From assembly GCA_030765125.1 (NCBI GenBank), contig JAVCDD010000366.1:1-52957 (forward strand): a DNA stretch of 52,957 nt. Direction: 5' to 3'. Made by a program: the position numbers and the translations under genes. The notes beneath the pieces are model-generated. The model was not told where the DNA came from. It did no database searches and saw only the letters and a list, made by a program, of their open reading frames with translations. Positions 1,645-51,572 of this stretch are shown here, in pieces. Numbering within the stretch: position 1 is the first letter of the stretch; each line of letters opens with the position of its first letter. The stretch comes from Candidatus Hatepunaea meridiana. GTDB lineage: Bacteria; Electryoneota; AABM5-125-24; Hatepunaeales; Hatepunaeaceae.

Positions 1645-1683
1645 TCTAACAATTTTATAGGAACAATACAATTTCTAAGAAAT

Positions 1684-12889: not shown

Positions 12890-12919
12890 CAGAACTCAAT
12901 AAACACAAGAGGAATTATG

Positions 12920-14490: not shown

Positions 14491-15771
14491 TTAGTGCGTT
14501 TGACATCCCTGGTAATAGGCTTTTACAGAATTGAAGTCCATAGATTGACCACTCTGCACTGAAGTCGGTTTAGTTCCTGCAAGAATTTCGATAGTTCTCA
14601 TTAATATCTCATCTGCAGGATTTCCAAACGCGCGAGCAGGAATTAGAGACGCCACAGGAGCGGATGAGTTAACTAAGACAACAATATTATTTCCAAGTTT
14701 ATCCTTGAACAGTGAGGCTGAGAATCCATCGATTCCGCCAATATGTCCTAATACCGGTTGGTTATCCCCTGGTGTTGGATTTTCGTCAACTATACCCAAC
14801 CCAAACGCCAAAGGCGCACCGGGAGCAACCGGTACGGTCTTAAGTCTTTCGACCTGAGTAGCGGCGGAGAGCAAATCACCATCAATCAAAGCATCCAGCC
14901 ATTTGAGCATATCGGGAGCATTTGACACCATAGCGCCTGCTGCCATAGCAACAGTTGGGCTTACAGCGGTGGCGTCATTCCAAATATCAAGCACACCGTT
15001 ACGGTCAAAATCCATATATCCATTAACGATGTCTGGTGGGTTTTCCAATTCACAGTACTCTGTTGCGGGGAGTCCGACAGGTCCGAAAACGCGCGTATCC
15101 AACTCGTGTTTAAGTGAATTGCCGGTTAGATGCTCGACCATTAGTTGAAGATAGACATATCCGGTATTGCAGTAATTCCAGGCTGTTCCCGGTTTATGAG
15201 TCAGACTGTCGGTTGTTAGAGACAACAATTGAACCGCTGTCCATACCATTGATCCATAACTGGCTTGCTGAACCATTTGAAATTCAGGTGTATGGTTGAA
15301 ATTGATCAGTCCACAGGTATGATTTAAGACCGATCTGAGAGTCATTATTGTATCGGGATGTACCGGGATCATCGCTGCGATGCTATCGGGAAGATACTTC
15401 TGAATAGCAGAGTCAAGCTCTATTGAGTCTGCATCCACAAGCTGGAGAACAACGGTTGCTACATAGGTTTTGGTGATGCTGCCAATTTTGAAACGGTCGT
15501 CCCACTCAATGTCCACGTCAAAGTTAAGATTTGCCTTTCCGGTGGTTCCAATCCAGATATCATTTCTACCAACCAGCTTGACTCCAACTAACCCGCCGGC
15601 TACCTGGAATTCAGCGATAGACCCGTCAAGCATATTCTGTATCTGATCTGCTGCTCCCGGATAAACCGAAGATGGACTGGTTGGATTACTGTCTTCATCC
15701 TCGTCACATCCTATGAAAACAAAGAAAGATACGAAGATTAATAGAAAAAGTATAGTTTTGAGTTCGCGCAT
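14491..15771 (-). CDS. beta-lactamase-fold serine hydrolase lipoprotein
   Basis: Product of 426 residues from the class C beta-lactamase/DD-peptidase family, which includes esterases and D-amino-acid peptidases. The signal peptide ends in a lipobox, FIGC, with Cys22, followed by an acidic linker (DEDEDSN), so it is a membrane-anchored lipoprotein. The catalytic SxxK is SITK at 98-101, the second motif is YCN at 200-202 (usually YxN), and the third is HIGG near residue 360 in place of KTG, as in the esterase-like branch. AAGGAG stands upstream of the start. It lies directly downstream of NRPS-2 on the same strand. Action on the exported peptide, as a maturation or resistance hydrolase, is possible but not shown; a housekeeping role is equally possible. 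Confidence 0.85.
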   Translation of the reverse strand: MRELKTILFLLIFVSFFVFIGCDEDEDSNPTSPSSVYPGAADQIQNMLDGSIAEFQVAGGLVGVKLVGRNDIWIGTTGKANLNFDVDIEWDDRFKIGSITKTYVATVVLQLVDADSIELDSAIQKYLPDSIAAMIPVHPDTIMTLRSVLNHTCGLINFNHTPEFQMVQQASYGSMVWTAVQLLSLTTDSLTHKPGTAWNYCNTGYVYLQLMVEHLTGNSLKHELDTRVFGPVGLPATEYCELENPPDIVNGYMDFDRNGVLDIWNDATAVSPTVAMAAGAMVSNAPDMLKWLDALIDGDLLSAATQVERLKTVPVAPGAPLAFGLGIVDENPTPGDNQPVLGHIGGIDGFSASLFKDKLGNNIVVLVNSSAPVASLIPARAFGNPADEILMRTIEILAGTKPTSVQSGQSMDFNSVKAYYQGCQTH

Positions 15772-23933: not shown

Positions 23934-24003
23934 CTTTGAGGGTTTGCAATTTAATTTGGTGGGTTTCACCCACCGCTATTTACATTCATTCCCTTTGGGA
24001 ATA
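23934..24003. repeat. CATTCCCTTCGGGAATG hairpin block, copy 3
   Basis: GTGGGTTTCACCCAC hairpin, CTATTTACATTCATTCCC, then CATTCCCTTTGGGAAT. As at 9952, it directly follows the GGGGACAG inverted repeat, so the two repeats form one compound unit present twice in the window. Confidence 0.75.
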
Positions 24004-24022
24004 TCTAATAAGGAATAATAAA

Positions 24023-34902: not shown

Positions 34903-37900
34903 ATGAATACCAATAAAGAACAACAATACATCTCAGCTTTAAAACAAGCTGCTGCAAAGATTAAAGAACTTAGCTCAAAGGTACAGCAGGATAAATCGAA
35001 CGAAGCGATTGCAATTATCGGCGCTGGGTGCAGATACCCCGGTGGGGTGAATGATCTGGAAGGTTACTGGCGTATTCTTGAAGATGGGATCGATACCCGT
35101 TCGGAAATGCCTTTGGACAGGTTCACTTCGAAACTCCCTGAATCAGAGTTCAGATCAAGAGTTGATGGAGGACATTTTTGGGGATGTTTCCTCGACGACC
35201 TTGAGTATTTTGATCCTACGTTCTTTCATATTACCCCGAATGAATCGATTGCTTATGAACCGAATCAAAAATTGCTGCTTGAAACCGCGTGGCAGACCTT
35301 TGAAAATGCAGGATTAACCCCCGATAAAATAAATGGAAGTCTAACCGGCGTCTACATTGGATTAACAGGTGTTGATTATGGTTCCGCCCAGCTTCTTACA
35401 GGAAATCTGGATACTATTACACCTTACTCTCTCACTGGTCTTTTACCTTGTGTGGGAGCCGCTCGTCTGTCCTACTTTTTCGATTTGAATGGACCAAGTA
35501 TGGCTTTTGACACGGCTTGTTCCTCGTCTCTTGTCGCTTTGCACAACGCAATACTCGCGCTGCGTAACAATGAAATTGATATGGCGGTAGTTGGAGGCGC
35601 AAGTGTAGTAATTTCACCGGAAGTGCATATCGGCTTCTCGCAACTCCAGGCTATTACCCCCACCGGAGTATGCCGCGCTTTTGATGATACTGCCGATGGT
35701 TATATACGGGGCGAGGGATGCGGAGTTGTGTTAATCAAGCGATTATCGGACGCTCAGAGAGATAAAAACAACATACTCGCAGTCATACGAGGTTCGGCGA
35801 TTAACAGCGACGGTCGCAGCGCAGGAATGACTGCGCCAAACGGATTGGCACAAGAACGGGTGATAAAAGACGCATTGAAAGATGCAGGAATAGATGCAAA
35901 TGAAATAGACTACATAGAAGCTCACGGAACCGGAACGATTCTTGGCGATCCTATTGAAGTAAATGCTTTATCGAGAGTCTTCTCTAATCGTTCGAAAAGC
36001 AATCCTCTTTTAATCGGAACGGTAAAAACAAATATTGGACACCAGGAAAGCGGCGCTGGTGTTGCCGGATTGATTAAATTAATACTGGCTCTTAATCATA
36101 AGAAAATACCTGCAAGTCTGAATTTTAGAAACCCTAATAAACAAATACCCTGGGAGAATATACCAATCCAGGTATTAGATAAAACAATTGACTGGAAGAA
36201 AACCGATGGAATTAGAACCGCTGGTTTAAGCAGCTTTGGCTTCAGTGGTACGAATGCGCACGTTATCATTCAAGAGCCACCGGAAATCATTGAACCGGAA
36301 ACGCAATCCGTTGAAAGACCACATCATATAATTGCGATTTCCGGTATGAATGATAATGCCCTTTCCGAGTCAATCCAAAGACATTCCCAAGCTATTAAAA
36401 ATACTGTAGCTATTAAAAACACTGTCATTCCCGCGAAGGCGGGAATCCAGAACTCCAATCATAAACTTGCTGATTACTGTTACAGCGCAAATTCAGGACG
36501 GGCACACTTCAATAAAAGAAAAGCTTTCCACGGAAAGACAAAATCAGAGCTTCTAAATAGACTGTCAAAATGGTCAAAATCGGCTAAATCACCGAGATCA
36601 TCTGCAAAAAAAGGGAAATTGGTATTCCTCTTCACCGGAGGAGGCAGTCAGTACAAAGAAGCGAGTCGTTCGCTTTGGGAAACGCATTCGGACTTCCGTG
36701 AGAACCTTTTAAAATGCGATGAGTTGTTCTATCCGCATATCAATGCTAGGATAACCGAACTGCTGTTTTCACCGGATTCGGATCCGCAGTTGCTTGACCA
36801 AATACTGTATATGCAGCCGGTAATATTCTCCGTAGGATATGCATTAGCGCAACTATGGATGGATTGGGGTATCTATCCGGATATGGTGATTGGACACTCA
36901 ATTGGAGAGTATATCGCTGCGTGCATAGCCAATGTTTTCAGTCTTAAGGATGCCGTTGCAATCGTTTCCAAACGCGGTCAACTGTTGCAATCGTTGCCTG
37001 ATAATGGTTGTATGCTGTCAATCAATGGAAGTTTCGATGAGGTTCAAGACTATATCGCTCCGTATTCTGATTCAGTTTCTATGGCGGCGATTAATGCGCC
37101 TGATTCCATAACGGTATCAGGTGAAAAGAAAGCGATAGATGAGATTACTTCTCGATTAGAGCGGGAAGAGATCAAATTCAAGAACCTGAGCATCTCAATT
37201 TCATCCCATTCTCCGTTGACTAAACCGATATTGGGCGAGTTTAAAAAAGAGCTTTCACTTCACAAATTCCGCGATCCACAAATCCCCTTGATCACAAATA
37301 TTAACGGAAAGTTCGCTGAGAAGGGTGAAATCAGCAGCCCGGATTACTGGTGTAATCACCTCTTGAAACCGGTTCAATTCTTGGATTCTATTCAATTTGC
37401 CGCTTCTAAAAAAGCGAATTACTTCTTAGAAATTGGGAGCCATAGTACACTCAGTTCAATGGGACAACAATGTCTCGATGGTGATAATCATCTGTTTCTG
37501 CCTTCTCTAATTCGGGATCAGGATGACTGGGACGTCATTTTAGAAACCGTCTCTATACTCTATCAAGAAGGCTACAATATTGATTGGGAAGCATTCGATA
37601 AGCCATATCCAAGACGAAGGATACAAGTGGCTCACTATCCTTTCCAAAAGGAATACAATTGGCTAAAACCGGTTGCAGGCGGAGGTCGAGCCGGTGAACG
37701 TTTAACCGAACCAAAGTTGCGTCAGGTGTTAACACCTGACGCAACAGAAAAAATGCTAAAAACTGACGTAAGAGAACCAATGACGACTCCGATAACAGCA
37801 GAATCGGTTGCAACCCATATTGCGAGTGAACCCGCCGTCGTTGAGGATATTATAGTTGAAGGCGCGATCGATGAGATTGTCGAGAAAGTAAAGGAGTTCA

Positions 37901-40900
37901 TCAACCAGGTAAGCGGGATTAGAGCCGATTCGATTGATCCGGATGCGAACCTGTTTTATATAGGATTAGATTCGCTTACAATTGTTGAGCTTCAGAATAA
38001 GATCAACGACCATTACAGTATAGAGCTTAACGTACAGGAGATTTACGAGAAGTATAATACGACACAACTGATTGCCGAATATATCCAGCAGAACGCGGTT
38101 TTTCATAAGGCAGTCCCCAAAGAAACTAAACAACTCGTTAAGTCCATCGAACCTGTCGAGACACCCATAACAGCCGGAAGCAGCGTCACCGATATAATTA
38201 ACCAACAGCTTCAATTGATGAATAAGCAGTTGGAAGTATTATCGGCTGCCGGTCAAGCGCCGCCTGATGATTTGGTTCAGAGAATTGAAAGCAAACCTCA
38301 ACCGATAGAATCACTATCGACTGTTCTTGTCAAGACACGATCTATCATCACCGATGATGTCAATCCAATTAGAGGGATGATCTTCGTTGATGAGAATTTG
38401 TCACCGCAGCAGCGCAATTTTATACAAGACCTTACAACGCGATATAACAGGAAGACTCCAAAATCAAAAGAGTACGCTCAGAAAAACAGGAAGCTTTCAG
38501 CGGATTGGATTGCCTCGCTGGGTTATAGAAAGAGTTTGCGGGATTTGATCTATCCAATAGTATCCGCACACTCGCAAGGTTCACACTTTACTGATATAGA
38601 CGGTAACGATTATGTCGATACTGCAATGGGATACGGAGTTCATTTCTTTGGTCACCAGCCGCCGTTTGTTATGGATGCGATAAGACATCAGTTGGACGAA
38701 GGGTTTGAATTAGGTCCTCAGACGGACTTGATTGATGAAAATGCCCGAATGGTGCAGGATTTAACAGGTGTTGATCGTGTAGTGTTTACTAATACGGGAA
38801 CGGAAGCTGTAATGGCTGCCGTGAGGCTGGCGCGCGCTGTAACCGGCAAGAATCAGCTCGTGATCTTCTCAGGCGCTTTCCACGGCACTTTCGATGGCAT
38901 TCTTGCAATGGCGGAAGGTGATTACACTATGCCGTTTTCACCGGGGACTCCTCCAGGAATGGTGTCTGACGTCAAGGTGCTAACTTATGGATCCGAAGAT
39001 TCATTGAAATATATCAGGAAAAACGCTGATAAAATTGCCGCAGTACTGACTGAACCGGTGCAGAGTCGTCGACCGGGATTCCACCCTGTCGAATTCCTGA
39101 GGAATCTCAGGTCTATTACGGATCAACATTCCGTGGCGTTGATCTTTGATGAAATGGTTTCCGGGTTTCGTATCCACCCCGGCGGCGCACAGTACACCTT
39201 TGGAGTAAAGGCTGATATTATTGCTTATGGTAAGTTAATCGGCGGAGGGATGCCTATAGGAATAGTTGCAGGAAAATCGGATTATCTCGATGCGTTTGAC
39301 GGCGGTTACTGGACTTTCGAAGATGAAAACTCTGCACCGAACACAAAGACAATGGTTTACGGTGGTACATTCTGCAAACATCCCTTAACAATGGCAGCAA
39401 CCAACGCTGTCCTAAAGTATTTAATCGCCCAAGGACCCAGATTGCAGGATCGGGTTAATGCGCTAACAGTTGGACTGTCGGATCAATTGAACCGATACTT
39501 TGAGAATAAATCCGCACCGGTAAGAATTCGCAATTACAGCTCAATGCTGCGGTTTGAATCGTTTGGAAAATACGATCTCACGCGTATGCCGATAGAGATG
39601 GATCTGCTGTTCTATTCGATGATTGAAAAAGGCGTCTATACGTGGGAACGACGGATTTGTTTCCTGTCTACTGTTCACGATGATAATGATATTGCACAGA
39701 TAGTCGATGCAGTTTGCGAATCAATCGAAGATATTCGCAAGGGTGGGTTCTCTTTTAGAGATGATGATCAGGAAAAGATCACTTCGCAGGCAGGTACACC
39801 TGCGCCACCGGTCACTTCGTTTCCGATGAGTTCAGCTCAACAGCGGTTGTTTGTTCTTTCACAATTTCCCGGTGGTGAGTTAAGCTATCATATAAGCGGC
39901 GCAATTAAATTAACCGGAAACCTTGATCGTGATAAAATCGAGTCAACCCTTAGAGAGCAGTTACTTCGTCATGAAACCCTTCGCACTGGATTTAAAGTTG
40001 AGAATGATACCTTGATAAGAGTTATTCATAAAGACGCGCCTCTGAATATTGAAACAACTCAAATAGAACCGGATCCTGATAAAATACAGGATTATCTTAA
40101 GAGTTTCATAAGACCGTTTGACCTTTCGGAGCCGCCCTTATTTAGAGTTGGTCTCGCAGAGATTACTCCAACAGAGCACTTGCTGGTATTAGACGTACAT
40201 CATATTGCAGTGGATGGCTTTTCACTGAATATTATAATGCAGGAATTCATGCGTTTGTATCTTGGACAGCAATTGCCGCAATTAACCGCGACATATTCCG
40301 ATTATCCAATTGAAGAATTAGAATACTTCAAATCCGAAAAATTTGCTAATGATGAGAATTACTGGTTAGAAACTTACAAGGGTGATATTCCCGTCCTAGA
40401 TCTGCCTTTAGACTATTCTCATCCACCTGTTCAGGATTTTTCAGGTTTTACTAACAGAAGCACGTTAGAAGAATCAATCGTGCAATCGTGTGAGGCATTA
40501 GCGCGTGAGACCAATTCAACGCTATTTACCGTGCTGTTCACCGCATTTAACGTTTTACTGCATAGATTATCAACCCAAACCGATCTTATAGTCGGTGTGC
40601 CGGTAATAGGACGCCCGTCAGGAAAGTACTCTAACGTTATTGGAATGTTCGCTAATACTCTGCCTATAAGAACCGGAATCGAAGAAGGCGATACATTCCT
40701 GACCTATCTGGAAAGGGTGAAGAATATTCTTGGTTCCTCATTTGCGCACCAGCAATATCCCTTTGAAAAACTGGTAGATCAACTTAACCTCGAAAGAGAT
40801 ATGAGTCGCAATGTCCTTTTTACGACCTCGTTTGTATATGAGAAAGCTGATGATCGTCTACCTGCTTTACCTGGCTTGACGCTTGAGGAAGTTGATATTA

Positions 40901-43900
40901 ATATTAAATCATCCCTCTTCGATCTGACCTTTGAATGCATCCAGGCGCGCGGGCAAATTAAGCTGAATATAAATTACAGAACAGATTTATTCAAAGAAGA
41001 TACGATTGAACGGTGGAAGGACTATTTCATTAACATTCTGGATGAAGTTTCACAAAAACCTGAAACACAATTATCACAAATTGATTTGTTGAGGGATTTG
41101 GATTCAAAAAGCATAATTATTGGCGAAACCTATCCTATTGAACCTTCCCAGTCAACCATAATAGATATCTTCCATCAGTCAGCAAAAGCTCACCCGGATA
41201 GAACTGCCATTCTATTTGAAGATACATCCTTAACACTTCAGGAAGTAGAGGATTTATCCGATCATATTGCTGCCAGATTGATCAAACAGTATAAAACCGA
41301 AACTGGTGAACCGATTGGAATGTTTGTAGCGCCTGATGAGAACCTATTTCCATTGATGATGGGTATTATGAAATCGGGTGGCGCTTTCCTGCCTATAGAC
41401 CGTGATACTCCTGAAAGTCGAATTCAATATATTATTGAAAATTCTGAACTAAAATTAATTATAACAGATTCTATGGATATTGATGACTATCGATTAGAAT
41501 GTAAAGTTATATCAATTGAAGACCTGATATCAGGTGAAAGGGAACAGCTTCCATCAAATCTATCCGCGCAAATAGCGCCGGATAATATCGCTTATATCAT
41601 ATATACATCAGGCACTACCGGCAACCCTAAAGGTGTAATTGTATCGCATTTTGGAGTGGCTAATTATATTCACTGGGTAAATAAAGAGTATAATATTGAA
41701 CCGGAAGACCGTTCTATACTTTTAACACCGCATTCATTCGATCACAGTTTTACACATTTGCTTGGAATTCCGGCTTTGGGCGGGAGTTTATATATATGCA
41801 ATGATATTGACAGGAAGGACCCTGATAGACTAATACAGTATATTGTAAATAAAGGTATTACTATATTAACATTAATTCCCTCATATTTACATTTAGTCCT
41901 GCAATCAAAGTATGTGAAGGATTTAAAAAATTCTACTCAACTTCGATTATTCCTATCAGGCGGTGAGGCTATTCGACCGAATGATATTCAGGCATTGCAT
42001 CAACTATGCCCGAATACTCGCATGGATGACCATTACGGACCTGCTGAAAGCACTATTAGCAGTATTATCCATGAAATTGATTTTAACAACTACGAGAAAT
42101 TTCTGAACAAACCCGTCGTTGGTAAGCCTGTTGGTAATTCGGAAGTACTAATTCTCAGTAAAGAGCTTAAAATACAACCTATAGGTGTTCCGGGTGAGAT
42201 TGTTATTGGAGGCGCCTGTCTGGCTAAAGGTTACATTAACAATCCGGAACGAACAAACCAATCTTTCATAAAGCTTTCCGATGAATCCGATAAAGTGTAT
42301 TACCGGACAGGCGACCTTGGGACGATCACATCGGATGGAACAGTTGAATTTCTGGGAAGAATTGACAGACAGATTAAATGGAATGGTTTCAGGCTTGAGC
42401 TGGGTGAAATAGAGGGTGCAGTAACAAGAATTAGAGCTATTAACGATGCTGTGGTAATTCTGCGTGATGATATTCCATCTATGCCTGAATTGGTTGCATT
42501 TTATACATCTTCAGAAAATATAGATTCTGAAACCATTCGTGAACACCTGAAACGGACCCTTCCGGTCTATTCCATTCCTTCAAGATTCATTCGGTTAGAT
42601 AAGATTCCCTTAACGCCAAATGGTAAAATAGATCAGAAAGAACTCAAGCAATATCCGATAGATAGCATTGTATCTCCACCATCAGTAGGTAGGACACTCC
42701 TGTCCGACACTCCCAATCCGACAGACAAGAGTGTCTATCCTACTACGGTAATAAATGAGGAGGAAACACACAATGAATTATTACATTTATGGCGAGAAGT
42801 ATTGGGGAACGATCAAATTCAACCGACTGATAACTTTTTTGAAGTCGGTGGAACAAGCATCAAAGCTATCTTGCTGATGATGAAAATACGCGATCAGCTC
42901 AATTGGGATGTAACCTTGCAGGACATCTTCAAGTATCCTACAGTGAAGCAGTTTGTAAATAACGTTGATTCGTCAGTATCCATTTCCCTGCCGCCTTTAG
43001 AACCATTGTCCTATCAGGAATCTTATGATTTATCTCACGCACAGAAGCGACTGTGGATACTCTCTAACCGGAAGGAAAGTTCGCAGGCTTACAATATGCA
43101 CATCGTTTATGAGTACAATACTACTTTCGATGAAGAACTCTTGCGTATGACAACAGAGCAGCTTTGCTTGCGTCACGAAGCATTACGAACGACTTTTAAG
43201 GTTATAGATGGAAAACCACGTCAAGTGATACATAGTGAACCATTATACGACTTGAAGGTTATTGCTGTTGAAAAAGAAGTAGATATGGAAGATAAAATAC
43301 AAAGTGTTTACTATGAAGAAGTTAATTACCAATTCGATCTAACACAAGGGCCATTGCTTCGCATCACAAATCTGTATTCTCCATCCAATCCAGATAAGTC
43401 CTTCCTGGTTCTTAACGTACATCACATCATTACTGATGGTTGGTCAAACAATATTCTGATGAAAGAATTTATACTTCTTTATCAAAATGCACAGACCGAT
43501 GAGTTGCCACCCCTGGATATACAATACAAGGATTATGCAGTATGGCACAATCAAATAATTCAGAGCGCTCTCGTTGAACCACACCGTCAATACTGGCAGA
43601 ATAAACTAACAGGAATCCTGCCGGTTCTGGATTTATTCGGGGAAATATTACCGGAAACGATGGGCTTCAAAGGTAAATGGTTTGCGTCCGACCTTTCAAA
43701 TGAATTATCACAGAATCTGCATAATCTGGCAAAGAAGCATAAAATCAGTTTGTATAATCTTTTTGTTTCCTGTATAAAAACGCTTTTAATAGTCCACGCT
43801 TCGCAGAAAGACATTATTATATCGACTCCGGTTTCCGGGCGGGTTCATCCGAAATTGGAAAACCAGGTTGGCTTTTATCTAAATATGTTAGTATTAAGAG

Positions 43901-44394
43901 ATACCTTCACGGGTGATGAAACCCTAAATGAAATAATGAATATGGTTTCCCGTACATTCAATGAAAGTATTGAACATGAAATTTATCCTTATGATGCAAT
44001 TATCGATGATCTAAACCTGGTTTATGGGAATAAACGAATTCCATTATTAGATGTGATAGTAAACTCAGTTGATTACGAAAATCTACAAAACATAGAAATT
44101 CAAGGAATTAGAGGTGTTCCGCACCTTGAGGATTCTCACACCAGTCGAGCGTTATTGAACTTTTATTGTATTCAAAAGGAAGCCATACAAGTTGCTATAG
44201 AATATGATAGCGAACTGTTAAATCCATCACAAGTAGAAACACTATCGGATGACCTGCAAAGAATTATGAACATATTCATTGCTCAACCCAATCTAACATT
44301 GAATCAGATAAAAACCATGTTCACCTCGACTGATGTAATTGAAGAACAACAGGAGTATCTTGATTCGACTATAGATATTGATGAGGATTTTTAG
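34903..44394 (+). CDS. hybrid PKS/NRPS: KS-AT-ACP-aminotransferase-C-A-T-C
   Basis: 3163 residues. Order: N-terminal docking-like coiled coil (1-32), KS (about 33-460, Cys206, His341, His380), AT (about 570-925, GHSIGE with Ser666, ISSH ending at His769 where HAFH or YASH is usual), ACP (GLDSL, Ser1024), class III aminotransferase (about 1190-1615, PLP Lys1444, Asp1416 in FDEMVSGFR), C1 (about 1638-2060, HHIAVDG 1766-1772), A (about 2085-2580, YTSGTTGNPKG), T (GGTS, Ser2652), C2 (about 2706-3140, HHIITDG), acidic tail. The embedded aminotransferase should turn the beta-ketone left by the KS into a beta-amine, as in mycosubtilin and iturin synthetases (MycA/ItuA), which share the order KS-AT-ACP-AMT-C-A-T-C. 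The A code reads about DHTTLGHISK, weakly Asp-like. There is no A-T after C2, so the acceptor is NRPS-1. Three repeat insertions lie in frame. No ribosome-binding site is visible. Confidence 0.94.
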   Translation: MNTNKEQQYISALKQAAAKIKELSSKVQQDKSNEAIAIIGAGCRYPGGVNDLEGYWRILEDGIDTRSEMPLDRFTSKLPESEFRSRVDGGHFWGCFLDDLEYFDPTFFHITPNESIAYEPNQKLLLETAWQTFENAGLTPDKINGSLTGVYIGLTGVDYGSAQLLTGNLDTITPYSLTGLLPCVGAARLSYFFDLNGPSMAFDTACSSSLVALHNAILALRNNEIDMAVVGGASVVISPEVHIGFSQLQAITPTGVCRAFDDTADGYIRGEGCGVVLIKRLSDAQRDKNNILAVIRGSAINSDGRSAGMTAPNGLAQERVIKDALKDAGIDANEIDYIEAHGTGTILGDPIEVNALSRVFSNRSKSNPLLIGTVKTNIGHQESGAGVAGLIKLILALNHKKIPASLNFRNPNKQIPWENIPIQVLDKTIDWKKTDGIRTAGLSSFGFSGTNAHVIIQEPPEIIEPETQSVERPHHIIAISGMNDNALSESIQRHSQAIKNTVAIKNTVIPAKAGIQNSNHKLADYCYSANSGRAHFNKRKAFHGKTKSELLNRLSKWSKSAKSPRSSAKKGKLVFLFTGGGSQYKEASRSLWETHSDFRENLLKCDELFYPHINARITELLFSPDSDPQLLDQILYMQPVIFSVGYALAQLWMDWGIYPDMVIGHSIGEYIAACIANVFSLKDAVAIVSKRGQLLQSLPDNGCMLSINGSFDEVQDYIAPYSDSVSMAAINAPDSITVSGEKKAIDEITSRLEREEIKFKNLSISISSHSPLTKPILGEFKKELSLHKFRDPQIPLITNINGKFAEKGEISSPDYWCNHLLKPVQFLDSIQFAASKKANYFLEIGSHSTLSSMGQQCLDGDNHLFLPSLIRDQDDWDVILETVSILYQEGYNIDWEAFDKPYPRRRIQVAHYPFQKEYNWLKPVAGGGRAGERLTEPKLRQVLTPDATEKMLKTDVREPMTTPITAESVATHIASEPAVVEDIIVEGAIDEIVEKVKEFINQVSGIRADSIDPDANLFYIGLDSLTIVELQNKINDHYSIELNVQEIYEKYNTTQLIAEYIQQNAVFHKAVPKETKQLVKSIEPVETPITAGSSVTDIINQQLQLMNKQLEVLSAAGQAPPDDLVQRIESKPQPIESLSTVLVKTRSIITDDVNPIRGMIFVDENLSPQQRNFIQDLTTRYNRKTPKSKEYAQKNRKLSADWIASLGYRKSLRDLIYPIVSAHSQGSHFTDIDGNDYVDTAMGYGVHFFGHQPPFVMDAIRHQLDEGFELGPQTDLIDENARMVQDLTGVDRVVFTNTGTEAVMAAVRLARAVTGKNQLVIFSGAFHGTFDGILAMAEGDYTMPFSPGTPPGMVSDVKVLTYGSEDSLKYIRKNADKIAAVLTEPVQSRRPGFHPVEFLRNLRSITDQHSVALIFDEMVSGFRIHPGGAQYTFGVKADIIAYGKLIGGGMPIGIVAGKSDYLDAFDGGYWTFEDENSAPNTKTMVYGGTFCKHPLTMAATNAVLKYLIAQGPRLQDRVNALTVGLSDQLNRYFENKSAPVRIRNYSSMLRFESFGKYDLTRMPIEMDLLFYSMIEKGVYTWERRICFLSTVHDDNDIAQIVDAVCESIEDIRKGGFSFRDDDQEKITSQAGTPAPPVTSFPMSSAQQRLFVLSQFPGGELSYHISGAIKLTGNLDRDKIESTLREQLLRHETLRTGFKVENDTLIRVIHKDAPLNIETTQIEPDPDKIQDYLKSFIRPFDLSEPPLFRVGLAEITPTEHLLVLDVHHIAVDGFSLNIIMQEFMRLYLGQQLPQLTATYSDYPIEELEYFKSEKFANDENYWLETYKGDIPVLDLPLDYSHPPVQDFSGFTNRSTLEESIVQSCEALARETNSTLFTVLFTAFNVLLHRLSTQTDLIVGVPVIGRPSGKYSNVIGMFANTLPIRTGIEEGDTFLTYLERVKNILGSSFAHQQYPFEKLVDQLNLERDMSRNVLFTTSFVYEKADDRLPALPGLTLEEVDINIKSSLFDLTFECIQARGQIKLNINYRTDLFKEDTIERWKDYFINILDEVSQKPETQLSQIDLLRDLDSKSIIIGETYPIEPSQSTIIDIFHQSAKAHPDRTAILFEDTSLTLQEVEDLSDHIAARLIKQYKTETGEPIGMFVAPDENLFPLMMGIMKSGGAFLPIDRDTPESRIQYIIENSELKLIITDSMDIDDYRLECKVISIEDLISGEREQLPSNLSAQIAPDNIAYIIYTSGTTGNPKGVIVSHFGVANYIHWVNKEYNIEPEDRSILLTPHSFDHSFTHLLGIPALGGSLYICNDIDRKDPDRLIQYIVNKGITILTLIPSYLHLVLQSKYVKDLKNSTQLRLFLSGGEAIRPNDIQALHQLCPNTRMDDHYGPAESTISSIIHEIDFNNYEKFLNKPVVGKPVGNSEVLILSKELKIQPIGVPGEIVIGGACLAKGYINNPERTNQSFIKLSDESDKVYYRTGDLGTITSDGTVEFLGRIDRQIKWNGFRLELGEIEGAVTRIRAINDAVVILRDDIPSMPELVAFYTSSENIDSETIREHLKRTLPVYSIPSRFIRLDKIPLTPNGKIDQKELKQYPIDSIVSPPSVGRTLLSDTPNPTDKSVYPTTVINEEETHNELLHLWREVLGNDQIQPTDNFFEVGGTSIKAILLMMKIRDQLNWDVTLQDIFKYPTVKQFVNNVDSSVSISLPPLEPLSYQESYDLSHAQKRLWILSNRKESSQAYNMHIVYEYNTTFDEELLRMTTEQLCLRHEALRTTFKVIDGKPRQVIHSEPLYDLKVIAVEKEVDMEDKIQSVYYEEVNYQFDLTQGPLLRITNLYSPSNPDKSFLVLNVHHIITDGWSNNILMKEFILLYQNAQTDELPPLDIQYKDYAVWHNQIIQSALVEPHRQYWQNKLTGILPVLDLFGEILPETMGFKGKWFASDLSNELSQNLHNLAKKHKISLYNLFVSCIKTLLIVHASQKDIIISTPVSGRVHPKLENQVGFYLNMLVLRDTFTGDETLNEIMNMVSRTFNESIEHEIYPYDAIIDDLNLVYGNKRIPLLDVIVNSVDYENLQNIEIQGIRGVPHLEDSHTSRALLNFYCIQKEAIQVAIEYDSELLNPSQVETLSDDLQRIMNIFIAQPNLTLNQIKTMFTSTDVIEEQQEYLDSTIDIDEDF
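36424..36450 (+). repeat. single MITE arm inside the hybrid gene (KS-AT linker)
   Basis: One arm of the CATTCCCGCGAAGGCGGGAA element, read in frame as TVIPAKAGIQ (residues about 507-516), in the linker between KS and AT. Just upstream an 18-bp unit is duplicated, giving AIKNTVAIKNTV. Confidence 0.85.
37716..37745. repeat. perfect 30-bp palindrome inside the hybrid gene
   Basis: Identical to 16734-16763. It is read in frame as LRQVLTPDAT (residues about 939-948), in the flexible linker between AT and ACP. Confidence 0.95.
42685..42743. repeat. hairpin insertion inside the hybrid gene (A-T linker)
   Basis: Imperfect 20-bp arms GTAGGTAGGACACTCCTGTC (42685-42704) and GACAAGAGTGTCTATCCTAC (42724-42743). 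It is read in frame as SVGRTLLSDT...TDKSVYPT between the A and T domains. Confidence 0.85.
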
Positions 44395-44417
44395 TGGATA
44401 CCCGAAAAACAGTATTC

Positions 44418-44619: not shown

Positions 44620-44717
44620 TACGAAAGTTTAGTATTGCAGGTCATACGAAGGTTTTAATTTAATATTATATGAAACTGCAAAATAAATCATCTAACATAT
44701 TTCTGAAAGGAAACAAT

Positions 44718-45332
44718 ATGGAAGAAAAGATTGAAAAATCTGAAAAAAAACGTTTTGATTACATAAGAAAACTCAAAACAAGTAGTCTAAATATTCTGAA
44801 AGGAAATTACGTGGGAGAAAGACAAGCAGTCGCCGATAAAATCGTCCAAAACAGGGTTTGGTGGTCTGTAGGCGGTGGTTTAATTCCTATTCCATGGGTA
44901 GATCTAGTAGCCGTTACTGGAGTACAGTTATCAATGATCTACGCTCTATCTAAAAATTACGACGTTGAATTTAAGAAAAATCAGGCGAGAACTATTGTTG
45001 CTTCGCTTTTAGGTTCAATTGTTCCATCATCTCTTGCTCGCGGTACTGTCGGAAGTTCTTTGAAAGCAATACCGGTATTAGGCGCAACGCTCGGTGGTAT
45101 TTCAATGTCCGCCTTCTCCGGAGCTGCGACTTACGCAATTGGTAAGGTATTCATCCAGCACTTTGAGACCGGTGGTACGTTTATGGACCTTGATGTTGAA
45201 AAAATGCGCGAATTCTTCAAGGAACAATTCGAAGAAGGTAAAGTCGAAGCTGAGAAAATAGACAAAGAAGAATTAGCTCCAAAAAAAGACAACGTGAAGC
45301 CAAAGCCAACGCCAGTAAAAAAGACAGAGTAA
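44718..45332 (+). CDS. DUF697-like membrane protein, copy 2
   Basis: About 204 residues. GAAAGGAA lies six bases before the ATG at 44718; the in-frame ATG at 44670 has no such site. It is a paralogue of the protein at 12920, sharing the MEEK start, GGGLIPIPWVDLVAVTGVQL, YALSKNYDVEF and IGKVFIQHFETGG. It is longer at the N-terminus (a charged helix) and has a lysine/glutamate-rich C-terminus. Two hydrophobic stretches should insert in or lie on the membrane. Its position, right after the last synthase and just before the exporter genes, suggests a role at the membrane in this pathway, but none is known for the family. Confidence 0.75.
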   Translation: MEEKIEKSEKKRFDYIRKLKTSSLNILKGNYVGERQAVADKIVQNRVWWSVGGGLIPIPWVDLVAVTGVQLSMIYALSKNYDVEFKKNQARTIVASLLGSIVPSSLARGTVGSSLKAIPVLGATLGGISMSAFSGAATYAIGKVFIQHFETGGTFMDLDVEKMREFFKEQFEEGKVEAEKIDKEELAPKKDNVKPKPTPVKKTE

Positions 45333-45658: not shown

Positions 45659-45853
45659 ATGCCAATTTTAGTAATTGTAATACCGCTATATATATTAGCG
45701 TGCATGTTTTCCGGTTTCCTTGGTAGGAAAACCAGGATCGGTTATTGGGGGTACTTGTTTCTTTCCCTGATTACTACTCCCATAATAAGTTTACTATTTC
45801 TATACTTTACTAATCCTCATAAAAAGCCTAAGCCGAAGAAGTTAGATGATTGA
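45659..45853 (+). CDS. small two-helix membrane protein
   Basis: 64 residues: two membrane helices (about 2-20 and 28-50) and a lysine/proline-rich tail (HKKPKPKKLDD). AAAGG lies about seven bases before the ATG. Its stop overlaps the exporter start by eight bases, so the two are probably translationally coupled. I do not recognise it; it resembles small superinfection-immunity or accessory membrane proteins. Confidence 0.7.
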   Translation: MPILVIVIPLYILACMFSGFLGRKTRIGYWGYLFLSLITTPIISLLFLYFTNPHKKPKPKKLDD

Positions 45854-47513
45854 GCAAATCCGACTGCTACATATGTATCGGCAGGAATCGAAGGATGAAA
45901 ACGAGGGACTCAAACTTCTTGGCTATACTTTCATTTCCGCCATTTCCAATACATTACTACTCGTAATTATCAACACTGCAGCACATAATGTGGAGTATAA
46001 AGTCCTGAATATTCAATACTTCATAATGTTTGCAGCATGTATGGCAGCTTTTATTGTAACTCAGAGACACGTCCTTAAACAAGCGGTTATTATATCAGAG
46101 AATATAATCAATCGAATTAGAATCCGAATCGGTGATAAGGTCAGAAAATGTAATTTCTATGAATTGGAAAAACTCGGTCATACGGAAATATACTCGAAAC
46201 TAACCAAAGATGCTGTGGTTGTAACGCAGTCCGCACCGCTTATTATTAGTGCCACACAGTGTATTATTATGGTAGTTTTAAGTATGATATATGTCGCCTT
46301 TCTATCAAAAATCGCTTTTGTAATAGCGCTTGGAGTAATAATCCTGTCAATATTGTATTACCTGAAAAACGATAAGATTGTATCGAAAAATATGAGAAAG
46401 GCTATGGAAAGGGAAGTGGACTTGTTTGGCACTCTTTCTCATATCTTAGACGGATTTAAAGAAATTAAAATGAACAAAAAGAAAAGCGATGAAGTAATTG
46501 AAGATTTACGATTAGATTCAGATGATGTGAAAAATTTGAAAATTAAGGGATTAGTACCCTATGCAGATAACTATATTTTTTCTATTGCATTTTTCTTCGC
46601 TTTAATTGCAATAATAATATTTGTATTACCCAACCTCTCAACTTCATTTAACGACGTTGTTGTGAAATTAACAACAGCAATAATCTTCATTGTCGGTCCT
46701 ATATCGAACGTCGTAAATATTTTTACGGTATTGGCTCAATCAAATATTGCTATTGACAACATTTATGGATTAGAAAAAGCATTAGACGAACATAAAGATA
46801 TTATCAATGATAATAAACAAATCGTTATTCCCGATGCAAAAGATTATAATCTGATTAATATTGATGATATGTATTTCGAGTATACCGACAAGGAAGGAAA
46901 TCCTGTTTTTAGCGTCGGTCCGATTAATCTCAAGATAAAACGAAATGAAATCATTTATGTTGTTGGGGGGAACGGCAGCGGCAAAACAACATTCTTGAAG
47001 TTACTGACCGCTTTATATTATCCAAAATATGGCAGCATATCGCTGGATAAAGTTAGCCTAAGCAAGGAAAACATCCAATCGTACCGTGAATTGTATTCGA
47101 TTATTTTGTCAGAATTTCATTTATTTAATAAACTTTACGGATTAAGTCAAATAGATGAAAAACACGTATTTGAATTACTGAAATTGATGGAAATCGAGAA
47201 TAAAACAGGCTATGTTGACGGTCGCTTCACGAATCTTGACCTTTCAACCGGACAAAGGAAGCGATTGGCATTAGTTGTTACATACCTGGAAGATAAAGAG
47301 ATTTATGTATTTGATGAATGGGCTGCGGATCAGGATCCTTACTTCAGGAAATATTTCTACGAGGAATTAATTCCTGATCTGAAAAAACGCGGGAAAACTG
47401 TTATCGCTGTAACACACGATGATCGATATTATGATTCATGCGATAGAGTTCTAAAAATGGACTTCGGGAAAATGACAACCTATCTGGATAACAACAATGA
47501 AAAAATTCTTTAG
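45846..47513 (+). CDS. ABC exporter of the cyclic-peptide transporter family
   Basis: 555 residues, membrane domain first (about 20-310, six helices), then ATPase (about 335-550). Walker A GGNGSGKTT (Lys380), signature LSTGQ (466-470), Walker B ending FDE (Glu491), followed by WAADQDPYFRKYFY, and switch His524 in THDDRYY. The DEWAADQDPxFR sequence and the length of about 550 are typical of the SyrD/PvdE/YojI group that exports non-ribosomal peptides, siderophores or microcins across the inner membrane. It is the obvious exporter for the peptide made here. The next gene overlaps it by 17 bases. Confidence 0.92.
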   Translation: MIEQIRLLHMYRQESKDENEGLKLLGYTFISAISNTLLLVIINTAAHNVEYKVLNIQYFIMFAACMAAFIVTQRHVLKQAVIISENIINRIRIRIGDKVRKCNFYELEKLGHTEIYSKLTKDAVVVTQSAPLIISATQCIIMVVLSMIYVAFLSKIAFVIALGVIILSILYYLKNDKIVSKNMRKAMEREVDLFGTLSHILDGFKEIKMNKKKSDEVIEDLRLDSDDVKNLKIKGLVPYADNYIFSIAFFFALIAIIIFVLPNLSTSFNDVVVKLTTAIIFIVGPISNVVNIFTVLAQSNIAIDNIYGLEKALDEHKDIINDNKQIVIPDAKDYNLINIDDMYFEYTDKEGNPVFSVGPINLKIKRNEIIYVVGGNGSGKTTFLKLLTALYYPKYGSISLDKVSLSKENIQSYRELYSIILSEFHLFNKLYGLSQIDEKHVFELLKLMEIENKTGYVDGRFTNLDLSTGQRKRLALVVTYLEDKEIYVFDEWAADQDPYFRKYFYEELIPDLKKRGKTVIAVTHDDRYYDSCDRVLKMDFGKMTTYLDNNNEKIL

Positions 47514-48354
47514 AAGAATAAAAAACAGCATAGAACAATATGCGAGAGAGCATATCTTGAGGATAGTTCTAACATCTTCAAGTTTTATCTTTCTAATCGC
47601 TATGTTAGCGCCACATATGCTTATCTTTGTCGAACCCGGTGAAGCAGGTGTTCTTTGGCGAAGGTTTGCAGGTGGAACGGTAGTCGATAGATACTACGGT
47701 GAGGGAACGCATTTAATCCCTCCCTGGGATAATATGCATATCTATAATATGAGAACACAGGAAGTCGGGGATTCCGTCGCCGTTTTATCTTTAAATGGAT
47801 TAACCATAACATCGGAAATTTCAATACGATACAGACCTAATTATGATATTGTAGGATTACTTCATAAGAATGTAGGACCTGATTATGTGAATGTTGTAGT
47901 TATCCCTGAGATTGAAGCGGTGGTGCGTACAATTATCGGTCAATATATGCCTGAAGAGATATATCAATCGCAGAAATCAATTGCTGAACAAATCGTTAAA
48001 GAAGCTTATGTACAAGTTGAAGAAAGATATATCTCTCTGGATGATGTTCTAATAAAAAGAATTAGATTGCCATCGAAGATTAAGGAGGCGATTGAGGCTA
48101 AGTTAGAGCAACAACAGAAAGCTCAGGAATACGACTTCAGACTGCAACGGGAAGTAAAAGAAGCTGAGCGGAAGAAGATTGAAGCGGAGGGTATTGCCAA
48201 ATACCATTCGATAGTCCAACCTTCTTTGACACAGGATATTTTAACCTGGCAAGGTATCGCCGCAACTAAGATACTGGCTGAGTCGGAGAATGCTAAAGTC
48301 GTCATAATAGGCGCCGGTGATAAAGGATTGCCACTTATATTAGGAAATCAGTAA
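47497..48354 (+). CDS. SPFH/Band 7 (prohibitin-like) membrane protein
   Basis: 285 residues. One N-terminal membrane helix (about 20-42) is followed by the Band 7 domain (EPGEAGVLWRRFAGGTVVDR, then YGEGTHLIPPWDNMHIYNMR, both typical of prohibitins) and a long coiled coil (about 190-240). SPFH proteins form large membrane rings that organise lipids or shield proteases. It starts inside the exporter gene (17-base overlap), so the two are translated together; it may form a scaffold around the transporter. An SPFH protein in an NRPS export operon is unusual. Confidence 0.88.
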   Translation: MKKFFRRIKNSIEQYAREHILRIVLTSSSFIFLIAMLAPHMLIFVEPGEAGVLWRRFAGGTVVDRYYGEGTHLIPPWDNMHIYNMRTQEVGDSVAVLSLNGLTITSEISIRYRPNYDIVGLLHKNVGPDYVNVVVIPEIEAVVRTIIGQYMPEEIYQSQKSIAEQIVKEAYVQVEERYISLDDVLIKRIRLPSKIKEAIEAKLEQQQKAQEYDFRLQREVKEAERKKIEAEGIAKYHSIVQPSLTQDILTWQGIAATKILAESENAKVVIIGAGDKGLPLILGNQ

Positions 48355-48355
48355 A

Positions 48356-50020
48356 TTGAAGCTAAGTAATTTAAAATATGTTTTTGCCTTATTTCTTATA
48401 TCCCTGATATCTTGTACTACTACCGATAAGATTGTAGAAGAGAGGTATTCTAAAGCAAAGCGCGGTGAAGGTGATATTGTAATTGGAGTTGTCTGGCCGG
48501 AATCAAAACTAAAATCCGATTTTAGTAATGGCGTTAAAATGGCTTTAAGTGAAGTTAATAGCGATGGAGCAATAAACGGTCGGAGAATTAGAGCAATTTA
48601 CCGGGATAGTAAAGGAGATAAAAGCAGAAATAGAGAAATTGCGCATGAATTTTCAAGAAATACTGATATGATAGGGGTCTTTGGTCATTTCTATTCCTCT
48701 TTAGCTCTTCCCTCTTCTGTAACCTACCAGGAAAACGGATTAATATTCTTAACACCAGGGTCACTTCAACAAGAACTTAGTATGCATGGTTTTGATAAGT
48801 TCTTCAGGTCTATACCAAATACCAATTCCGTAGGTCAAATTTGCGCATCTTATACTTATAAATTGGGTTTTCATAAACCTCTTGTATTATGGGAAAGAAG
48901 CGGGTATGGGAAAAATACTTACCAAATCTATAAATCGTATCTGGCAAAAGTTGGTATTAATATTGAGAATTCATTCTCTTTCTTTTCGCTGGATAAGGAT
49001 TATAGGAGTATTATTGCTGAAATGAAGAATTTGGATTTCGATGTAATATTTATGGCGGTTTCTTCATCAGACGCACCTAATGTTATTCGCATTGCAAGGG
49101 AAAACGGTATTGAAGAACCATTTCTAGGTGTAAACCTTGTCGAAGAAGTGCTGCGTGAACGTACGGGAGAATATGCGCGCAATATATATACCGTTAGTAA
49201 TTTCGATCCTGAAAGCGACTATCCTGCAACGGTTGAATTCGTTAAGAAGTTCAAAGAGAAATACGATCATACTCCTGATGTTTGGGGCGCTTATGGTTAT
49301 GATGGTATTAAATTGTTTGCATATCTAATTAAAACCCACAAAACAAGCCATCCGGAAGTATTAGCATCAAATCTAAGGTATTTAGAGAATTGGGCAGGCG
49401 CTACCGGTTCACATACGTTTACAAATCGGGGTGAGATTAAATCCAAGCCGTTATATCTTAATCAATTGATAAATAACCGATTCGTGCAGATTTCGGTAGA
49501 TACTCTTAAGGAAATTGATCTATATAGCGCGTATAATCGTTTATTGAGAAAGGAAATAGAAAAAGGATATTTAAAGTTATTTAAATCTGATGACGTCACG
49601 ATAGTTCTTCTTCCGGATGTTTCCATTTTCACAGGAACTAAATACAAAATATCAGAACTTGGCAGTCGGATTTTTAATGTTATTTCAGAAGAACTTATGA
49701 AACATCCTGAATATAAAATTGTTATTGAAGGTTATGCAGATATAACGTTTATTTATGATAGGACAAAATCAAAGAGTGAAGTCTTACTCGATTTGTCATT
49801 ACTGAAATCGTCTCAAGTTGCAAAAAAACTGTACGAAGCAGGATGTGCTAGATCAAGGATAAAAGTAAAAGGTCAAGGATTTAGTGAGCGATCCAAGTAT
49901 GCTGCTGAAATTGCTGGGAAAAAGTCATTTGACAACCGTATTGAACTTGTGATGACTCCAATTAAAAAGAAAGAAATGCAGGAAGAAGAACCTGCCACGC
50001 TGTCTGGGCGCCGTCCTTAA
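48356..50020 (+). CDS. PBP1-OmpA fusion lipoprotein
   Basis: 554 residues from a TTG start one base after the previous stop codon. The signal peptide ends in a lipobox LISC (Cys20). Residues about 35-375 match the type 1 periplasmic binding fold of branched-chain amino acid receptors (GDIVIGVVWPES, IGVFGHFYSSLALPSS, WGAYGYDGIKLFAYL). Residues about 420-545 resemble the OmpA-like peptidoglycan-binding domain (KIVIEGYAD, LDLSLLKSSQVAKKLYEAGC, RIKVKGQG, DNRIELVM). It is thus a ligand receptor fixed to membrane and cell wall. It could bind the exported peptide, as an immunity, chaperone or uptake factor. No permease of the branched-chain family is nearby, which argues against ordinary amino acid uptake. 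Confidence 0.8.
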   Translation: MKLSNLKYVFALFLISLISCTTTDKIVEERYSKAKRGEGDIVIGVVWPESKLKSDFSNGVKMALSEVNSDGAINGRRIRAIYRDSKGDKSRNREIAHEFSRNTDMIGVFGHFYSSLALPSSVTYQENGLIFLTPGSLQQELSMHGFDKFFRSIPNTNSVGQICASYTYKLGFHKPLVLWERSGYGKNTYQIYKSYLAKVGINIENSFSFFSLDKDYRSIIAEMKNLDFDVIFMAVSSSDAPNVIRIARENGIEEPFLGVNLVEEVLRERTGEYARNIYTVSNFDPESDYPATVEFVKKFKEKYDHTPDVWGAYGYDGIKLFAYLIKTHKTSHPEVLASNLRYLENWAGATGSHTFTNRGEIKSKPLYLNQLINNRFVQISVDTLKEIDLYSAYNRLLRKEIEKGYLKLFKSDDVTIVLLPDVSIFTGTKYKISELGSRIFNVISEELMKHPEYKIVIEGYADITFIYDRTKSKSEVLLDLSLLKSSQVAKKLYEAGCARSRIKVKGQGFSERSKYAAEIAGKKSFDNRIELVMTPIKKKEMQEEEPATLSGRRP

Positions 50021-50044
50021 CAGCTACGTTATTAAATACTATTA

Positions 50045-50686
50045 ATGATTTCTGTTTTATATACGCACTTTGAAAAACCTTTTTCACCTAATACCTGGAA
50101 TAAATACTTAACACAACTGCCATCAAATTTCCACGACAGGATTAATCGCTTTGTGCGTTGGCAGGATCGTCATGCAAACTTGTTGGACAAACTACTACTC
50201 ATTGAAGGTTTGAAACGATATGGGCTACCTCGCGAAAAATTAAATGATATCAAATATAATCGTTACAAACGACCATATTTTGAAGGTGGGTTTGATTTCA
50301 ACATATCACATTCCGGTGAATACGTAATATGCGCACTATCAGATGAAGGGACTATAGGTATTGATCTTGAGAGGATACGTGATATTAAAATAAACGAATT
50401 TAAGTCTTTCTTTTCAGCGAGCCAGTGGGAACTATTATCAAAAGATTTCAGTTTGCAGGGATTTTTCAGGTTATGGACTAAGCTTGAATCAGTTATAAAA
50501 TGGGATGGAAGTGGATTATATGTTGAGATGAATAAGGTGCAATTGATGAATGATCGTGCTGAAGTGAACGGAAAGACCTGTTTTCTACATAAGGTTTCAA
50601 TAGACAGGGAATACCCCTGTTATTTTTCAACAAATAATTTTGTAAATAATTTCATCTTAAAAAAAATAGAATTTGGAGAACCGTAA
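50045..50686 (+). CDS. Sfp-type phosphopantetheinyl transferase
   Basis: 213 residues. It transfers phosphopantetheine from CoA to the serine of carrier domains, and the four synthases here carry six of them (Ser563, Ser1628, Ser1016, Ser2110, Ser2652 plus ACPs Ser2101 and Ser1024, seven in total with both ACPs). Motifs: FNISHSGEY (85-93), GIDLE (105-109, Mg ligands Asp107 and Glu109) and LWTKLESVIK (143-152, Glu148 and Lys152). The usual WxxKE reads WTKLE here, with Leu147 in place of Lys; the metal ligand Glu is kept. Length is close to Sfp (224). It lies 25 bases after the PBP1-OmpA gene. Confidence 0.92.
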   Translation: MISVLYTHFEKPFSPNTWNKYLTQLPSNFHDRINRFVRWQDRHANLLDKLLLIEGLKRYGLPREKLNDIKYNRYKRPYFEGGFDFNISHSGEYVICALSDEGTIGIDLERIRDIKINEFKSFFSASQWELLSKDFSLQGFFRLWTKLESVIKWDGSGLYVEMNKVQLMNDRAEVNGKTCFLHKVSIDREYPCYFSTNNFVNNFILKKIEFGEP

Positions 50687-50687
50687 A

Positions 50688-51572
50688 ATGGTAAAAAAAC
50701 TATTATTCATTCTTGTTTGTTTCATTCTTCTATGTTTCCCTCTACTCATCCAAGCTGAGGATAAAGCTGAAACAGAAGATGCAGAGCGCGATATCGGGAA
50801 ATGGTGGAATAAAAGTTCCCTAACCTATTCACCGATGATTAAAAACTTCCTGATTCACAGCGAAATCTCTTCTTGTTCATACACTAAACATCATGGTAAT
50901 GCTGAAGGATTTGAATATACAGGACTTTTTCTCTTCTCAATGCGACAAAATAGATTCACTTATTATATGTTTTGTCAATTGAGTAAAGAGGATATTGAAA
51001 TACCTTTCATGGGTGCAATGATGTTGACTGAAGACTCATTCTACGATAATGTTTTACGCACCGATTTATTTAAAAATCTTTACCTTGATTTGGGATGGAG
51101 GTGGGAGCGTAATACGGAAAGAATGATAGAAAACCGGTATGTGAAGTACGCAGGGCTGGGAACTTACCATGAAATCCTGCCAATATATAATACATCTTTG
51201 ATTGCTGGTATAGGGCAGATGGAGGAAGAGTATGACAGGAGTACTCCAATTGTACCTGCAACATTAGAGGATGATGAACGTCCGGTGTTTTTCCTCATTC
51301 AAAATGGATGGATCAACCTTGATCCGTGGGGAAGGACTTCATTAAGGGATAGATTAATTTACAGAATTCCCCTTGATGACAGCGAAGCGTATCAAATCAT
51401 TCTTAAATATACATTTGACTTTGCTATTACCAAATTTCTGTCTGTTTCGTACCAATATGAATTAGATTACTTTGGCAAGGTTTGGCCTATGGTGGGGGAC
51501 TCAGATGAAAAACATATTTATGGATTGACTGTGAAATTTGATTGGAAAAGTGGTGATAAGCTGATTTGGTAA
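50688..51572 (+). CDS. predicted outer-membrane beta-barrel protein
   Basis: 294 residues. I place the start at the ATG at 50688, one base after the previous stop, with GGAG nine bases upstream. A clear signal peptide (about 1-24, cleavage after IQA) is followed by a short acidic linker and alternating aromatic/hydrophilic strands (FEYTGLFLFSMRQNRFTYYM, YQIILKYTFDFAITKFLSVS), ending in a strand with aromatic residues (YGLTVKFDW). This fits a small barrel like DUF481 or a porin-like channel. As last gene of the export operon it may carry the product through the outer membrane or give resistance. Confidence 0.65.
   Translation: MVKKLLFILVCFILLCFPLLIQAEDKAETEDAERDIGKWWNKSSLTYSPMIKNFLIHSEISSCSYTKHHGNAEGFEYTGLFLFSMRQNRFTYYMFCQLSKEDIEIPFMGAMMLTEDSFYDNVLRTDLFKNLYLDLGWRWERNTERMIENRYVKYAGLGTYHEILPIYNTSLIAGIGQMEEEYDRSTPIVPATLEDDERPVFFLIQNGWINLDPWGRTSLRDRLIYRIPLDDSEAYQIILKYTFDFAITKFLSVSYQYELDYFGKVWPMVGDSDEKHIYGLTVKFDWKSGDKLIW

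Follow-up and report, generated by a model that had tools for sequence, protein, structure and literature searches.

The genes at 44670-51572 of the window, which is the stretch of 52,957 nucleotides analysed here (contig JAVCDD010000366.1 of Candidatus Hatepunaea meridiana, assembly GCA_030765125.1, phylum Electryoneota), are probably the export and activation end of a nonribosomal peptide synthetase (NRPS) and polyketide synthase (PKS) cluster, acting as one dedicated module with the mechanism proposed below. Its exporter is a predicted cyclic-peptide-type ABC exporter which passes the family cut-off. Judged by sequence, the exporter subgroup has three regular companions in several phyla: an SPFH protein of its own, which is prohibitin-like, a DUF697 protein and a membrane protein of about 60 amino acids.

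Six close-packed genes, all on the forward strand, run from 45659 to 51572 and encode the small membrane protein, the exporter, the SPFH protein, a PBP1-OmpA lipoprotein, a 4'-phosphopantetheinyl transferase (PPTase) and a probable outer-membrane protein (Table 1). The first-pass annotation had named the last five as an unusual export operon, and all five were present at the places given, on the forward strand and with agreeing Pfam and NCBIfam identities. The tight packing described from 45659 onwards was also borne out: the small open reading frame (ORF) overlaps the exporter gene by 8 bases, the exporter gene overlaps the SPFH gene by 17 and the PPTase gene the last gene by 14, and the gaps from SPFH to PBP1 and from PBP1 to PPTase are 1 and 24 bases, respectively. 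At position 45659 the small ORF starts, a gene which the annotation had left unnamed; the annotation had also overlooked both the NRPS/PKS cluster directly upstream and the DUF697 gene at 44670-45332. Because homologous frames keep the same order in another genome (locus L032, see below), the gene run is taken to be more than chance. A promoter and terminator scan gave no excess over shuffled sequence. Repeats resembling repetitive extragenic palindromes flank the DUF697 gene (44414-44453, 45438-45477 and 45617-45641), with an inverted arm and two direct copies of 40 nt that are 93 % alike.

The link between this exporter type and this SPFH type was followed in three groups of genomes. In the window's phylum (39 genomes) TIGR01194, the cyclic-peptide exporter family, was found in two genomes, and in both the SPFH gene comes next; the SPFH matches of 10 other genomes were all lower-scoring. 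Among 385 alphaproteobacterial genomes the SPFH profile (E ≤ 1e-55) matched 18 genomes at 20 places, and all 18 hold TIGR01194, compared to 26 of the 385 overall (Fisher 4e-25, phylogeny ignored). The Desulfuromonas phylum (297 genomes) contains 17 SPFH-matching genomes, eight with at least 294 bits and nine with at most 229. TIGR01194 was present in seven genomes of this phylum, all within the eight with high SPFH scores; in the remaining one, G491, the match lies on a contig of 3.9 kb. The score split (at least 235 or at least 294 bits) was set after the scores had been seen. The absences are soft, because no more than 3-16 candidates were scored in each genome in these large searches.

Gene neighbourhoods were compared for 38 linked loci: the window, L032, L028, L029, L031, all 20 alphaproteobacterial SPFH matches (L121-L140), six of 20 plasmid hits (L065-L070) and seven of the eight high-scoring matches of the Desulfuromonas phylum (L185-L191), the eighth being L028's own. 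Eight of the plasmid hits were opened; of these, H1 coincides with L124, and H20, a generic match from Hymenobacter with 26.5 % identity, was excluded. L192 was not counted, its SPFH gene being on another contig. As controls without SPFH, 14 of 42 exporter places were chosen; 13 were left after L148, with a split SPFH, the small protein and four DUF697 hits, had been moved after inspection to the linked side, outside the 38. The loci are not independent, as several are apparent sisters (L122/L123, L124/L127, L185/L186, L187-L189, L067/L070 and L137/L138). The small protein was found in 33 of the 38 linked loci, in 32 of these within 1 kb of the exporter, SPFH or DUF697 gene, and DUF697 in 28; neither occurred in the flanks of the 13 exporters without SPFH or of 15 generic SPFH genes. 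The latter, generic for their phylum (L034-L039 and L193-L201), were rejected as module members, none of them being accompanied by an exporter, the small protein, DUF697 or NRPS/PKS genes. An NRPS or PKS domain was located within 10 kb of 22 linked SPFH genes and of four control exporters, compared to none of the generic SPFH genes; beyond 10 kb, L066 has a KS domain and L126 an A domain.

The small-protein frames, 51-73 amino acids long as cut by the script, have two hydrophobic segments and a basic tail, and the segments enclose a motif like G-x(4)-R/K-x-G-F/Y and a conserved proline. Against Pfam, no model was above cut-off for the member in the window, and the best E among 18 members was 0.0067. 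The small-protein profile A2 matched 19 of the 385 alphaproteobacterial genomes, 17 of which belong to the 18 SPFH genomes (all except G445). The other two are G478, which holds the L148 module, and G392, where the match is weak (31 bits) and forms part of a longer frame at another place. Rows of the profile came from eight of the 19 genomes, and without those eight the Fisher value was 1.4e-15. At L148 (15640-17909) the four DUF697 hits stand in a row near the module, whose SPFH spans two hits.

The match of the exporter to TIGR01194 is full length (residues 28-543 on profile positions 27-547 of 554). PvdE, SyrD and YojI are named members of this type. The window's exporter resembles other cyclic peptide exporters in its above-cut-off family score and NRPS neighbourhood, but its subgroup differs in travelling with SPFH, the small protein and DUF697. 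In the exporter tree nine of the 13 exporters without SPFH form one clade (96 % SH-aLRT), the other four are scattered and most SPFH-adjacent exporters lie outside the clade of nine; 23 of the 56 inner branches are poorly supported and some branches are long. The dedicated export suggested by the first-pass annotation is well supported: the exporter belongs to a fitting family, NRPS/PKS genes are its neighbours and SPFH is conserved together with its subgroup.

The complete gene string was found in one other genome, G011, which is of the same phylum and another family. The order in its locus, L032, is NRPS, DUF697, NRPS, S12 hydrolase, DUF697, small protein, exporter, SPFH, PBP1, thioesterase, PPTase and last protein, with 57, 60 and 25 % identity to the window for the exporter, SPFH and last protein, respectively. 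Homologues of the genes named earlier do occur together in other genomes, contrary to what would refute the first-pass reading: of the 30 high-type SPFH matches from the three groups, 24 have an exporter no more than 3 kb away. The whole five-gene string, however, recurs only at L032, with the thioesterase inserted. A complex of all five proteins is supported in part. The pairing of exporter and SPFH recurs, but the PPTase is predicted to be biosynthetic, PBP1 is found in a minority of the loci and the conserved core adds DUF697 and the protein of about 64 amino acids. A Desulfuromonas contig carries the S12 hydrolase, exporter and SPFH, a PBP1 that lacks OmpA, and a PKS-NRPS with the aminotransferase and domain architecture seen in the window. 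Exporter and SPFH also stand together in an Opitutaceae contig (whose end truncates the exporter), Paracraurococcus, an Azospirillaceae contig, Skermanella, Azospirillum, a Rhodobacteraceae plasmid and Tistrella mobilis pTM3.

At L138 (12106-19692) the module adjoins YcaO and a ThcOx/nitroreductase-type oxidase, a cluster of the type making ribosomally synthesised and post-translationally modified peptides (RiPPs), and the cargo of the module is therefore probably not NRPS-specific. HlyD and TolC adjoin the module at L030, and on pTM3 (L064) it is beside an NRPS and an RND pump (HlyD-AcrB pair). The pTM3 locus was considered as the tistrellabactin cluster and rejected, since that cluster sits on another plasmid according to the available part of PMC10391617. 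The didemnin cluster was considered for it as well; the available part of PMC10811503 mentions neither an ABC transporter nor a prohibitin.

By sequence and by modelled fold the SPFH protein appears nearest to prohibitins. The nearest by sequence is prohibitin 9urz (E 3.9e-28), compared to E 7.9e-4 for HflC. The structure model (predicted local distance difference test, pLDDT, 84.7) has an N-terminal helix pair, the SPFH body and a 48-residue helix, and its fold matches are led by human prohibitin complexes (9o9z, Z 20.2, root-mean-square deviation (rmsd) 12.9 over 229 residues, then 8rrh, Z 19.7, rmsd 11.3 over 259), the large rmsd being uninformative on ring size. The N-terminus is positively charged and is followed by a membrane helix, from which, by a general rule, the body would face the periplasm. 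In its N-terminal helix, SPFH body and long helix the protein is like PHB1/2, HflK/C-FtsH and QmcA-YbbJ. It differs from HflK/C-FtsH and from SPFH-NfeD pairs in that its partner is an exporter, and no AAA protease or NfeD gene was found beside it among the seven neighbouring ORFs scanned (44670-52323).

Table 1 Predicted features of the biosynthetic cluster and of the export module in the window
Feature	Position	Strand	Evidence
NRPS, C/A/PCP modules	1597..8091	+	Pfam Condensation, AMP-binding, PP-binding
First DUF697 protein	12875..13393	+	DUF697 35.2 bits (cut-off 27.7)
Type II thioesterase	13691..14356	+	PF00975
S12 (beta-lactamase-fold) lipoprotein hydrolase	14491..15771	-	PF00144 133 bits
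NRPS	15947..23668	-	Pfam
PKS, AT-KS-AT-DH-KR-ACP	23936..30535	+	Pfam
PKS-NRPS with class III aminotransferase, KS-AT-ACP-AMT-C-A-PCP-C	34903..44394	+	Pfam
Second DUF697 protein, conserved-core member	44670..45332	+	DUF697 50.5 bits
Two-helix membrane protein, about 64 aa, conserved-core member	45659..45853	+	No Pfam family above cut-off
Cyclic-peptide-type ABC exporter, 555 aa	45846..47513	+	TIGR01194 325 bits (cut-off 286.2)
Prohibitin-like SPFH protein, 285 aa	47497..48354	+	Band_7 95.8 bits (cut-off 23.6)
PBP1 (LIV-type) ligand-binding lipoprotein with C-terminal OmpA, 554 aa	48356..50020	+	Pfam; lipobox LISC
Sfp-type 4'-phosphopantetheinyl transferase	50045..50686	+	ACPS 42.6 bits (cut-off 25), AASDHPPT_N 36.4 bits, above cut-off
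Probable outer-membrane beta-barrel, DUF481-like, 299 aa	50673..51572	+	DUF481 17.9 bits, below cut-off 21.1

According to the Pfam domain scans the gene run closes a 50-kb NRPS/PKS cluster. The architecture of its last synthase, the PKS-NRPS, is shared by L028 (35 % identity over 2609 columns), and relatives of the type II thioesterase are located inside the module in L032, L031, L065 and others. The cluster context makes the PPTase a biosynthetic enzyme, the predicted carrier-protein activator of the neighbouring synthases and outside any export complex, and it supplies the likely cargo of the exporter. The S12 hydrolase, clear in its fold, is a possible periplasmic maturation peptidase. Its SITK, YCN and HIG motifs and its lipobox were read from the sequence, and its nearest solved structure is the alkaline D-peptidase 4y7p (E 2.9e-40), ClbP reaching only E 7.8e-7. 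The domain is followed by no long C-terminal tail, and ClbP-type prodrug peptidases carry C-terminal membrane helices. A reading of this hydrolase as a SurE-like cyclase was dropped for the periplasmic role because of the lipobox. The cluster also contains a 955-residue TPR protein that ends in a caspase-like CHAT domain (31865-34732). Between NRPS genes it has a protein that combines a Fic/DOC domain and a winged helix (10148-11170) and another of the EcsC family (11310-12431).

The PBP1 lipoprotein matches Peripla_BP_6 with 136.1 bits (cut-off 31.7) and OmpA (PF00691) with 29.8 bits (cut-off 27.2), and its nearest solved structure is 4mlc (E 9.5e-47). Only the window's protein has a convincing OmpA fusion, the L032 protein having 17.0 bits, which is below cut-off. 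N-termini read by eye have a lipobox in the window, L125 and L032 and an apparent N-terminal membrane anchor in L028 and L191. For the last protein, the L032 relative matches DUF481 (PF04338) above cut-off with 28.3 bits; the structure model of the window's protein (pLDDT 37) was too poor for use. A relay from PBP1-OmpA to the last protein would apply at most to the window-type version of the module. Other arrangements of PBP1 were seen at several loci: at L136 (2496-6032), at a distance of 4 kb from the module, a 1179-residue fusion of PBP1, a mechanosensitive channel domain and a cyclic-nucleotide-binding domain, a 1019-residue frame with a PBP1 match near L140 and, at L190 (3815-8780), two consecutive PBP1 genes that follow SPFH, of which the first also encodes an SBP_bac_5 peptide-binding domain.

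In the proposed mechanism the PPTase would activate the synthases and the exporter would carry the completed peptide, probably a prodrug-like form, across the inner membrane. With its N-terminal helix as anchor and its body in the periplasm, the SPFH protein would oligomerise to a ring or dome which holds the exporter and confines the product at the point of emergence, with the small protein and the DUF697 protein as membrane subunits of the assembly. The S12 lipoprotein would trim the product, and the wall-attached PBP1 protein would bind it and pass it to the outer-membrane protein. That SPFH rings the exporter we infer from the SPFH family and the genetic link to the exporter, and the role of DUF697 and the small protein from their co-conservation. 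More specifically, a prohibitin-type SPFH ring with these two membrane subunits may enclose the exporter in a closed periplasmic chamber, with peptide trimming and a PBP1-OmpA relay to the outer membrane; this version is offered tentatively and we consider it rather doubtful.

Several findings weigh against the proposal. Sixteen of the 38 linked loci have no NRPS/PKS domain within 10 kb, some of them being on short contigs, and for L128, L067 and L070, with full or nearly full flanks, none was found in the DNA examined. Six of the 30 SPFH matches are more than 3 kb from an exporter, two of them at 33 and 43 kb and four on other contigs. PBP1 is not general, since 10 of the 38 loci have it at most 2 kb from SPFH, and the outer-membrane protein was found only in the window and L032. 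The fold match leaves ring size aside, as noted above, and the periplasmic side of SPFH and the sorting of the lipoproteins are predictions from general rules.

It is also possible, though rather unlikely, that SPFH forms a membrane microdomain which gathers the synthases at the exporter, i.e. a scaffold for biosynthesis instead of a periplasmic cage. The charged N-terminus and membrane helix suggest, by the rule mentioned, a body in the periplasm and thus away from the synthases, the nearest relatives are prohibitins, and the neighbours at L138 are RiPP genes with no megasynthases. The scaffold does have parallels: proximity labelling with the balhimycin exporter Tba tagged a paraslipin, an SPFH protein, and a microdomain to which the machinery is anchored is proposed there (PMC11960670, in the part available), and an interaction of a prohibitin with NRPS/PKS is speculated on in the available text of PMC12016528. 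SPFH, DUF697 and the small protein could also serve self-protection, keeping the inner membrane of the producer stable in the presence of a membrane-active product. The near confinement of the small protein and this SPFH type to exporter-bearing genomes would fit, as would a PspC-like membrane protein in the cluster (31305-31709; 25.5 bits, slightly below the cut-off of 27). However, the SPFH gene overlaps the exporter gene and follows one exporter subgroup, and other TIGR01194 exporters are near NRPS/PKS genes without SPFH (L141, L146, L147 and L152), and we regard self-protection as unlikely.

The PBP1 lipoprotein and the outer-membrane protein might recapture or sense the product, i.e. serve uptake or signalling and not export. 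PBP1 domains of the LIV-binding type, to which this one belongs, usually serve uptake or sensing, but no LIV-type permease or sensor kinase was found among the scanned neighbours and the PBP1 gene stays close to SPFH in the 10 loci mentioned, which makes this role improbable. Unrelated genes are common at the edges of biosynthetic clusters, and the genes could be neighbours by chance. With the same gene sets in several phyla and none in the two control sets (0/13 and 0/15), the co-occurrence counts contradict this and it seems most improbable.

The pairing of exporter and SPFH is almost unmentioned in the open-licence literature. One instance is known from PMC12016528, where, in the part available, GI13 of Thalassobaculum sp. 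OXR-137 is a 95-kb NRPS/PKS cluster with a cyclic peptide exporter and then a prohibitin-family gene, as in the window; this account is of a single genome and, in that part, includes neither DUF697, the small protein nor a systematic survey. The case of Tba and paraslipin is similar in that the exporter of an NRPS product is near an SPFH protein, but it is a proximity-labelling hit and the available text (PMC11960670) does not state that the SPFH gene is inside the cluster. No description of the four-protein core (exporter, SPFH, small protein and DUF697) was found in the open-licence PubMed Central literature, and DUF697 jointly with nonribosomal peptide gave no match there.

Few membrane assemblies have been imaged as well as SPFH rings, and few have functions that are so little settled. 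An SPFH gene tied to an exporter and to a cargo pathway provides a defined client for testing. The module would name two uncharacterised protein families as components of export, and it would give a gene signature for natural-product clusters in understudied Gram-negative phyla. If the closed periplasmic chamber were true, the producer would never be exposed to the free active product, and NRPS, PKS and some RiPP clusters would share an exporter assembly of a new kind.

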